Below are positions 6,801 through 35,510 of a stretch of 64,000 nt of DNA, in pieces. A program made the translations under genes and the position numbers. Below the pieces are notes generated by a model. The model was given only the letters and a program-made list of their open reading frames with translations. It did not search any database and had not been told where the DNA came from. The DNA lies in NCBI RefSeq assembly GCF_030064125.1, contig NZ_CP125957.1:4154001-4218000 (forward strand), given 5' to 3'. The first letter of the stretch is position 1. Every line of letters begins with the position of its first letter. Source of the DNA: Pseudomonas sp. G2-4. Its GTDB lineage: Bacteria; Pseudomonadota; Gammaproteobacteria; Pseudomonadales; Pseudomonadaceae.

Positions 6801-9800
6801 ATGATCGAACCGCGATGCATTTCGTTGAGTTCCACGCAACAATCCGTCTGGCTCGACCAACTGCTATCGCCCGACACCCCCTCCTACAACATCGGCGTAA
6901 CCGTGGAAATCCACGGCACGGTGGACCACGCGCTGTTCGCCGCAGCGCTGCAAGCCGTGGTGGCCCAATTCGATGCGTTGCGGCTGATGATCAGCGACCG
7001 CGATGGGCAGGTGCAGCAGCAGGTCGCCGAGCACTTGCAGGTGCCGTTCACCTTCCACGATTGGCGCGGTGAGTCCGAGGATCAGGCTATGGCCGCCATC
7101 GGGCAATTGAACCGCACGCCGTTCTCGCTCCGCGGGCAACCTCTGTGGGGTATGGAATGGTTTCAACTGTCCGACACCCATGCGCTGTGGAACAGCCGCT
7201 ACCACCACCTGATCAGCGACGGCACTTCGGTGGGCCTGGTCGGCCAGGCTGTCAGCGCCGCCTATAACCAACTGCTCGTCGGCGAGCCACTCCAACGGGA
7301 CCCGGTGTTGGCTCAGGGTTATCGCAACTTTGTCGCCAGCGACCGCGATTACCTCGATTCGGCGCGCCACGCCAAGGCGCGGGACTTCTGGCTGGAGCAG
7401 TTCCCGGCACTGCCGGAACCGTTGTTCCAGAGCGCTTCGCCGTCCCGCGATCTGGCCAGCGCCAGCGAGCCGCAGCCCAGTGCCCAGGCGATCTGGACCT
7501 TGGGCCACCAGCGCCTGGCCCTCATGACCCAGTGGGCAAGAACCCAGGGCGCGACGTTGAGCCATTGTCTGAGCGCATTGCTGGCCGGCTACTTTAGCCG
7601 GGTGACCGACCAGCGTGAGCGGCTGGTCATCGGCCTTCCGGTGCACAACCGCAGCAATCCCCTGCAGAAACGGACCGTGGGCATGTTCTCCTCAGTGCTG
7701 CCGCTGACGGTCGAGGTCGACCCCGCCGCCAGCTTCGTCGAGACCGTGCAAAGGGTAGCCAGCCAGACCCTGCGCAGCTACCGCCACCAACGCTACCCCC
7801 TGCAAAGTCTGCATCGTGAGTTGCGGGCTCGCGCCGGTCACCCCGGCCAATTGTTCGAGCTGATGCTGTCGGTCGAACAGTACCCCGGCGACGTCAACCT
7901 TGCTTCGGCCCGCTGCGCTCTGCGTACCTGGCACAACGGTTATGAGCGCTATCCGCTGGCAATCTATCTGCGGCATTACGAAGCCCAGGCCGAACCCTTC
8001 CTGGAATTCAACTACGACCCGCGTCTGTTCAGTGCCGAGCAGATGGCCGCGCACCTGCGGCGCCTGGAGTTCTTGACCGATCAGGTCCTCGCCGAGCCAA
8101 CCCGGGCCCTGGGCGACTGGGTGCTGCTGGACACAGCCGAACGGCAGCAGATCCTTGACGATTTCAATGCCAGCAGCCGTGACTATCCGGCCGATGAACC
8201 GCTGCCTGCGCTCTTCGCCGAGCAGGTGCAACGGCGCCCCGATGCTTGTGCGCTGCTGGACGGCGCGCAGACCCTGAGCTATCGCCAGCTCGACCAACGG
8301 GCCGAGCGCCTGGCTGGGCATTTGGCGGCCTGCGGGATTGGCGCCGGTGATGCGGTGGCGCTGTGCCTGGCCCGGGGCACGGCGTTGATCGTCTCGATCC
8401 TGGCGATCCTCAAGCGCGGCGCATGCTACGTACCCATCGACCGGGAGGCCCCGACGGCCCATCAGGCGCGGGTACTGGCGGACTGTGGCAGCGCCTGGCT
8501 GCTGGTGGCGGGTGACGATCGGCCCGCACTGGAAAACGTCCGCTTCATTGACGTTGCAGCGTCAGACCATGTATTGGCCGAATCCCACCCGGCCTGCGGG
8601 ACCGGCGATGTCGCCTACATCATGTACACCTCCGGTTCCACCGGAACGCCCAAGGGCGTGCAGGTGCCGCACCGTGCCATCGCCCGGCTGGTGCGCAACA
8701 ACGGCTTCGCCGAGTTCACCGCCCAGGATCGCTTCGCCCTCGCCGCCAACCCGGCCTTCGATGCCAGTACCCTGGAGATCTGGGGCGCACTGCTCAACGG
8801 CGGCTGCCTGGTGGTCTGCCCCAGGGAAACACTGCTGGACGCGGCCCGCTTCAACGAGCACCTGCTGCGCCACGAAGTCAGTGTGCTCTGGCTCACCGCC
8901 GGGCTGTTCCATCAGTACGCCGAAGCCCTGGCGCCGGCCTTCGGCGCGCTGCGCTACCTGATGGTCGGCGGCGACGTGCTCGATCCGCGGCGCATCGAAA
9001 AGCTCCTGCGCAACTCGCCGCCCAAGCACTTGCTCAACGGCTACGGGCCGACGGAAAACACCACCTTCACCACCACTCACGCCATCACCCTCGGGGACGC
9101 GCTGGCCGGTGACATTCCCATCGGCCGGCCCGTGGGCAACACCCAGGTCTACGTGCTGGATGAACAGCGCCGTCCGGTGCCGATTGGGGTGGCCGGCGAG
9201 CTCTACGTCGGTGGTGATGGCTTGGCCCTGGGGTACCTGAACCAACCGCAACTGAGCGCAGAACGCTTCGTCGCCAACCCCTTCAGCCAAGCGCCCGGGG
9301 CACGCTTGTACCGCACCGGCGACCTGGTGCGCTGGCGCGCCGACGGCGTGCTGCTGTTCCTGGGCCGCAATGATTTCCAGGTGAAGATCCGTGGATTTCG
9401 CATCGAGTTGGGGGAAATCGAAGCCCAGCTCAAGGCCCTGCCGGGGATCGGCGAGGCGCTGGTGCTGGCCGATGCCCAGCAGCGCCTGCTGGCCTACTTC
9501 AGCGCCACCGAGGCGCAAGCGCCCAACGCCCTGCGCGCCCGCCTGGCGGCGGTGCTGCCGGACTACATGCTGCCGGCGGCTTTCGTCCAGGTGGAAGGTT
9601 TCGCGCTGACCGCCAACGGCAAACTCGACCGCCACGCCCTGCCCGAACCCGACGAACAGCATTTCGCCCGGCACTGCTACGAAGCGCCCCAAGGGCCAGT
9701 GGAAACCCGCCTCGCCGAGCTGTGGGCCGAAGTCCTCGGGGTGCTGCGGGTCGGTCGGCAGGACAATTTCTTCGCCCTTGGCGGGCATTCGTTGCTGGCG

Positions 9801-34174: not shown

Positions 34175-35510
34175 ACCTTCGCTACGCCCATGGCTGTTTG
34201 CCTGGGGCGCCCAGGTCGCGTCCACCCTGGGCTCGGCCCTGGCGGCGTTCAGCCTGGGGATCTGGTTGCTGCAGCAACACGGCAGCGTCACCGACTACGC
34301 CTGGGTCATCGCCCTGTCAGCCTTGCCCGGACTGGTGCTGGCGCCGCTGGCCGGCTGGTTGGTGGACCGCTGTGAAGCGCGTGCTTTGCTGTTGGGCGTG
34401 GAAGCCTGTGGCGGCGCGGCGGCGCTGGCGCTCTGGTGGCTGTTCGAATCCAACGCCCTGGACCGATGGCAGGTGTACGCCTTCGCCGCTGTGAACTCCA
34501 GCACCCTGGTGGTGCGCATGCTGGTGTGTCAGGCGGCCATCCCGCGACTTCTGCGCAGCCCCCAGGCGATCGGCCGGGCCAATGGCCTGATGCAATTGAT
34601 GGTGGGCTTGCCACAGCTGATCGCCCCTACCCTGGCGGCGGTGCTGCTGGGTAGCGTCGGGGTGGCGGGGGTGCTGTTGCTGGACCTTGGCGCCGTGCTG
34701 TTATGCGCCACCGTCCTTATCTGGATCGGCCTGTTCGTCAGCGCCGTGCGCGGCACCGGCCAGGGCCGCGTCGACTTAGAGGGCGGATCGTCGGTGGTCC
34801 TGGCAGTGCTGCGCGGGCGTCCGGCGCTGTGGGCGTTGCTGGCCTACCTCGGGCTGGAGCACTTGATGCTCGGCCTGGCCTCGGCGCTGTTGTCGCCACT
34901 GGTGCTGGAACGCCACTCGGTGCTGGTGCTGGGCACACTGATGACCTGCGGCGGCCTGGGCATGCTCGGCGGCTCGCTGTGGGTGGTGGCCCGGCCGCCG
35001 GCGCGGCTGATCCGCACTGTATTGCTCGCCGACCTGCTGCTCGGCGCCGCCGTCCTGACCATCGGCGCCAGCGCTTCGCCGGTGGTGCTATATGTGGCCG
35101 CCTTCGTCGCGTTCGGCTGTTTTTCCCTGAGCACCAGCAGCGACCAAAGTTTCTGGCAACGCAGCCTGCCCGCCAACGCCCTCGGCCGGGTCTTGTCGGC
35201 CCGGCAGATGGTTTGCCTGCTGGCAATGCCCATTGGCGCCCTGGGCGCCGGCGCATTGGCCGACGGCTGGGCGATCACATTGATGAGCAAAACCGGAGAG
35301 TGGCAAGCCAGACTGGCGCCGCTGTTGGGAACGGGCAAGGTGGGCGGCCTGAGCCTACTGTTTGCCGCGGCAGGCCTGTTGTATGTGCTGCTGGCCAGCC
35401 TGGGGCTGGCCTTCGGCCCCTTGCGGCACCTGCAGCCAGAGTTGCCGTTATCCGGCGCGAAGCTCGACCAAGGGCCTGGGGCAAGCGGCGCGACAGAGCC
35501 GACTGCTTAG
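34164..35510 (+). CDS. MFS exporter of the NRPS operon (DHA3 / EntS-like)
   Basis: 448 residues starting MTIEPSLRPWLFAWGAQVAS, with about twelve hydrophobic segments and the loop motif GWLVDRCEARALLLGVE. This layout belongs to the MFS_3/DHA3 group that contains EntS-type siderophore exporters and macrolide efflux pumps. The start overlaps the NRPS stop by 11 nt, with GAGG about 12 nt upstream, so translation is coupled. Position and family point to export of the NRPS product and perhaps self-protection. The MacAB/PleABC-type ABC exporters usual for Pseudomonas cyclic lipopeptides are not in this operon. Confidence 0.87.
   Translation: MTIEPSLRPWLFAWGAQVASTLGSALAAFSLGIWLLQQHGSVTDYAWVIALSALPGLVLAPLAGWLVDRCEARALLLGVEACGGAAALALWWLFESNALDRWQVYAFAAVNSSTLVVRMLVCQAAIPRLLRSPQAIGRANGLMQLMVGLPQLIAPTLAAVLLGSVGVAGVLLLDLGAVLLCATVLIWIGLFVSAVRGTGQGRVDLEGGSSVVLAVLRGRPALWALLAYLGLEHLMLGLASALLSPLVLERHSVLVLGTLMTCGGLGMLGGSLWVVARPPARLIRTVLLADLLLGAAVLTIGASASPVVLYVAAFVAFGCFSLSTSSDQSFWQRSLPANALGRVLSARQMVCLLAMPIGALGAGALADGWAITLMSKTGEWQARLAPLLGTGKVGGLSLLFAAAGLLYVLLASLGLAFGPLRHLQPELPLSGAKLDQGPGASGATEPTA

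Follow-up and report, generated by a model that had tools for sequence, protein, structure and literature searches.

The 64,000 nucleotides of Pseudomonas sp. G2-4 DNA analysed here (the window) hold, at positions 6801 to 35510, what is almost certainly the thanafactin biosynthetic cluster (thfA-thfB-MFS). An earlier note, made from the sequence, had placed a nonribosomal peptide synthetase (NRPS) operon at exactly these coordinates and had predicted the acylated octapeptide Val-Ala-Gln-Ala-Val-Ala-Pro-Thr as its unrecognised product. The cluster is real and was correctly read, but it is very probably not new, thanafactin having already been described. By the refuting condition that the note itself had set, the word unrecognised fails, because PMC8878242, in the portion available, prints identical residues in identical order, and the architecture likewise matches the published thanafactin cluster. 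A false lead is thereby removed, since the octapeptide can in all probability be equated with thanafactin, a compound already on record. The strain itself is probably a member of the P. corrugata subgroup.

Organization of the NRPS genes

The features referred to below are as follows.

6801-16364, + strand: thfA-like NRPS1 (3187 aa), modules 1-3 (Val, Ala, Gln), starter-type C domain first
6801-8150, + strand: condensation domain C1, probably a lipo-initiation (starter) domain, from PDB matches
8613-9806, + strand: putative gene-conversion tract in module 1 (Val1), from the A3 motif to the carrier-domain GGHSLLAVQ
16361-34174, + strand: thfB-like NRPS2 (5937 aa), modules 4-8 (Ala, Val, Ala, Pro, Thr), tandem thioesterase (TE)
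16361-16600, + strand: TubC_N docking domain at the NRPS2 N-terminus (PF18563, E 5.8e-9)
21611-22804, + strand: putative gene-conversion tract in module 5 (Val5)
32504-34171, + strand: tandem thioesterase domains TE1 and TE2, PF00975 in each half
34164-35510, + strand: MFS transporter gene (PF07690), 3' of and overlapping NRPS2

The count of eight complete C-A-T modules in two proteins holds, divided as 3 + 5. In NRPS1, Pfam delimits three stretches each for C, A and T, while the count for NRPS2 (GTG start, 4-bp overlap with NRPS1) comes from five A3 and five T motifs found by motif search and from five Condensation matches, out of 72 in the genome, the protein's ends having been scanned for TubC_N and TE. 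The tandem thioesterases and the coupled exporter were likewise borne out, the former by PF00975 in both halves of the region, with NRPS chains as the best PDB matches of TE1 and TE2, and the latter by a PF07690 gene that overlaps NRPS2. A scan of 35400-36250 detected no promoter or terminator.

Acyl initiation, also claimed from the sequence, agrees with the PDB matches of C1, which lies closest to 7c1k, 7c1h and 7c1p (E 2.3e-37 to 6.2e-36; next match 8.2e-27). We take these to be rhizomide synthetase's starter C domain, although the PDB listing labels them only as 'NRPS modules'. An acyl start of the peptide is supported by this likeness.

Predicted peptide and its probable identity

Alignment extraction gave the adenylation codes DALWMGGTFK, DLFNNALTYK and DAQDLGVVDK for modules 1-3, and DLFNNALTYK, DALWMGGTFK, DLFNNALVYK, DVQFIAHVVK and DFWNIGMVHK for modules 4-8. 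With the residue meanings that we presume for such codes, the order reads Val-Ala-Gln-Ala-Val-Ala-Pro-Thr. The residue assignments of the earlier note therefore stand, but two of its code letters do not: position 5 of the Val code is M, not I or L, and position 8 of the sixth code is V. As a control, the same extraction was applied to a set of 22 A domains elsewhere in the genome (2.777-2.851 Mb) and returned a peptin-like order, with Thr, Pro, Ala first and Ser, Val last; we liken this system to the known peptins by its length and by the presumed meanings of its codes.

A second NRPS locus lies beside the peptin genes, on the minus strand at about 2.726-2.766 Mb (G000:C1), and comprises three proteins with ten A domains. 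The first carries Ser-type, Thr-type, DMKDLGMVDK, DLKNVGGGVK and DSALIAEVWK codes, the second Thr, Thr and DMKDLGMVDK, and the third Ser and DVQFNAHVVK; a stand-alone A domain (DFWSVGMVHK) is found at the same locus. This is presumably not the nine-module mycin layout.

Thanafactin A was reportedly isolated from the soil Pseudomonas sp. SH-C52, going by the title of Kirchner et al. 2021 (doi 10.1021/acs.jnatprod.0c01174). In the excerpted texts of PMC9948697 and PMC10928948, thanafactin is described as linear, with Val1 in thfA and Val5 in thfB, and is assigned to the Corrugata subgroup; the excerpt of PMC10928948 adds that its gene clusters (BGCs) are without luxR genes and that an MFS transporter lies downstream in all of them. 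The window presents the two-NRPS layout with three modules in the first gene, the Val code DALWMGGTFK at modules 1 and 5, the Pro code DVQFIAHVVK at module 7, and a single MFS gene directly downstream. The expression 'tri- or hexamodular' is applied in the same extract of PMC9948697 to the NRPSs of several families jointly, and, as Val5 sits in thfB, three modules is the only one of these counts that suits the first thanafactin NRPS. No LuxR-type regulator flanks the NRPS genes, the nearest regulators being of LysR type (5548-6441 and 36204-37202), and the sole GerE domain among the scanned window proteins, a set without some small ORFs, belongs to a response regulator at 61170-61919. The earlier placing of the peptide outside the usual Pseudomonas lipopeptide families agrees with PMC9948697, and its standing outside viscosin, amphisin or similar families is taken from the description in that extract.

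Proposed biosynthesis and rival readings

In the scheme that we propose, C1 would load a fatty acyl-CoA, probably 3-hydroxyacyl, onto Val1; ThfA would append Ala2 and Gln3 and pass the chain to ThfB, which has a docking domain at its N-terminus and would add Ala4, Val5, Ala6, Pro7 and Thr8; the tandem TE would free the chain as the free acid and the MFS protein would export it. As Thr8 is both C-terminal and the one residue with a hydroxyl in its side chain, an internal lactone to a side chain, as in viscosin or syringomycin, cannot form, so that a linear product is expected, which fits the published description.

A ring could also be closed by the tandem TE through the 3-hydroxyacyl chain, as in surfactin, and NRPS1 does carry a starter-type C domain. 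Tandem TEs are, moreover, common in Pseudomonas NRPS systems that cyclise. The product is nevertheless linear in the descriptions excerpted from PMC10928948, PMC9948697 and PMC8878242, and we regard a lactone as highly improbable. Still less credible, and in our judgement hardly tenable, is the proposal of the earlier note that the cluster represents a new lipopeptide family unrelated to thanafactin. It is true that the eight-residue clusters of such strains were once called orphans, in SH-C52 in 2015 (PMC4493835, in extract), and that the 'brasamide' cluster of 11K1 was likewise treated as an orphan in 2019 (PMC6433849, in extract); against it stand the P. bijieensis residue string of PMC8878242 and the matching thanafactin architecture.

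Homogenisation of the Val1 and Val5 modules

The Val modules share a tract of about 1.2 kb, of which 1164 nt entered the identity calculations. In every one of seven genomes, the DNA of the A1 tract agrees with that of the A5 tract to 92.9-98.0%, whereas outside the tract the two modules are only 54.2-59.3% (left) and 59.3-62.9% (right) identical. The same module compared across the three lineages gives 80.0-83.3% in the tract. In the tract tree, A1 and A5 pair by genome in all seven cases (supports 92 for the window and 91, 92, 73, 72, 90 and 100 for the others), while the trees of the left and right flanks split A1 and A5 by module. Inside lineages, the signal is weaker because orthologous tracts are there also closer to one another: 94.6-96.6% (window/G266/G267 and G125/G454) and 89.6-90.0% (G172/G112); the two copies of G454 are 94.9% alike, no closer than they are to those of G125 (95.3 and 94.6%). 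To judge from these identities and trees, recurrent gene conversion would keep the Val1 and Val5 tracts alike, a reading that we hold firmly between lineages and with moderate confidence inside them.

Collapse of a repeat during assembly might also yield near-identical copies, and the seven genomes include two multi-contig drafts (G112 and G172). The other five are, however, single contigs (G000, G125, G266, G267 and G454), and in four of these the counts show 12-32 differences between the copies at 362-364 third codon positions, which makes such an artefact very unlikely.

Among 22 A domains of the genome (the eight of thf and 14 of the 22 peptin domains, namely those for Val, Ala and Thr, the other eight omitted), thf A1/A5 ranks highest of 231 pairs at 97.7%. 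Identity among the three Ala domains of thf reaches only 65.7-73.1%, and it is therefore the Val pair that is homogenised among the eight thf domains. We rejected the idea that this is unique to thanafactin: the peptin Val6/Val22 pair, far apart in one NRPS system, reaches 95.3% in A-domain DNA, so homogenisation extends wider.

LP4 is a published four-module derivative, ascribed to recombination between thfA (Val1) and thfB (Val5) in the extract of PMC9948697. One crossover between the tracts would give an in-frame junction of module 1 with modules 6-8. This is the LP4 layout, and the shared 1.2-kb tract could thus explain it. We put at slightly below an even chance the combined proposal that Val1 and Val5 evolve in concert through lineage-wise gene conversion of one precise tract and that the same in-frame repeat is the site of the LP4-yielding deletion crossover. 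No LP4 locus was found through the exporter-relative query P0008 among 398 genomes, the exporter-matching ones being those read, and G454 has eight modules. The cluster offers a clean case in which two NRPS modules of one specificity were repeatedly homogenised inside a single cluster, and the repeat would account for a published deletion derivative.

Condensation domains and stereochemistry

C2, C3, C4 and C6 resemble dual (E/C) domains in their N-terminal sequence and HHHxxxDH motif. The marker of E/C domains is HH[I/L]xxxxGD; C4 has it in full and C3 almost so (HHR or HHQ), while after the Val modules it is degenerate in all eight genomes read, as QHLLQPxDD in C2 and HYLLQxxGD in C6 (G454 counted, P. 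mediterranea outside the count). Among the 22 peptin C domains the pattern was found in 12, and all 12 have HH...GD. C2 and C6, which read Val1 and Val5, may have lost epimerisation, leaving both Val residues L, with Ala2 and Gln3 D; we offer this as a rather doubtful prediction, and PMC9948697, in its excerpted text, warns that E/C domains often do not show the expected activity. It has the merit of being comparable with the published structure, in Val1 and Val5 as opposed to Ala2 and Gln3.

Distribution and genomic setting

The exporter gene served to trace the cluster. Of the ten proteins listed at E<=1e-10 (7995 candidates scored), eight are 73-94% identical to it, and in the four named strains with relatives (P. 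uvaldensis, ICMP22404, PSB18 and P. mediterranea CFBP 5447) the exporter adjoins an NRPS that is 77-79% identical in amino acids over the last ~3290 residues of NRPS2. Counting the window's own genome, it occurs in 7 of 298 genus genomes (E<=1e-40), an eighth match (G256; 28% identity, internal stop) having been dropped, and in 4 of 293 relatives (E<=1e-60). Query P0008 matched 8 of 398 genomes, seven already found (own included) and one new, G454. All eight codes stand in the same order in six genomes (window, G112, G125, G172, G266 and G454), and the partial clusters agree where readable (G238, truncated by the start of its contig, G267, and P. mediterranea, its last three modules); across genomes, either I or V occupies position 5 in the Thr code. 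In the single-contig genome G267, the reading frame of the thfB homologue is broken in module 7, by pseudogenization or by sequencing error. The published occurrences, as excerpted from PMC9948697 and PMC10928948, are confined to the P. corrugata subgroup. For P. mediterranea EDOX, the extract of PMC8477016 reports that antiSMASH named no thanafactin cluster and that MS found mycin and peptin only, other NRPS products being 'not detected'.

The cluster has a GC content of 67.9% against 60.8% and 60.2% in its flanks. Only part of this excess is special, because high GC also marks other NRPS genes of the genome (63.2-65.4% across five stretches); thfAB in six other genomes lies at 65.9-68.0%. 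The excess agrees with the foreign origin suggested in the excerpted text of PMC9948697 but is no proof of one. The thf flanks vary among genomes. In G266, homologues of the AraC, aldo/keto reductase and 38222-38923 genes lie upstream of thf, and in the window (38222-41542) these genes lie downstream, as though an inversion or a separate insertion of the cluster had taken place. Elsewhere in the window, an OprD porin gene stands between two MFS transporter genes (86-1237 and 2623-4002) whose products share 75% identity over 383 aa, which suggests a local duplication.

Comparison with named systems

The NCBIfam SolG match, although above its cut-off, was not taken as membership because the score sums repeated modules. 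Syringafactin, cichofactin and virginiafactin are linear lipopeptides of eight residues with which thanafactin is filed in Table 1 of PMC10928948 (excerpt), while PMC9948697, in the portion concerned, describes the thanafactin NRPSs and accessory genes as without similarity to those of the factin family. Brasamide of strain 11K1, a predicted eight-residue lipopeptide from a strain that also has mycin and peptin clusters, and whose single deletion partly impaired swarming, is known to us from extracts of PMC6433849. It is probably of the same kind as the product of the window, its composition lying outside the comparison; as a name for that product brasamide is plausible, and thanafactin was preferred as matched on testable features. 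By published description, again in extract, the window and the SH-C52 thanafactin A cluster show no difference, being alike in the Val1/Val5 split, the proline, the eight modules, the MFS gene downstream and the lack of a luxR gene. By the same kind of description (PMC8878242, in extract), the predicted peptide is identical to that printed for P. bijieensis XL17, for Pf275, in which it is reported to contribute to biocontrol, and for strain 2P24.
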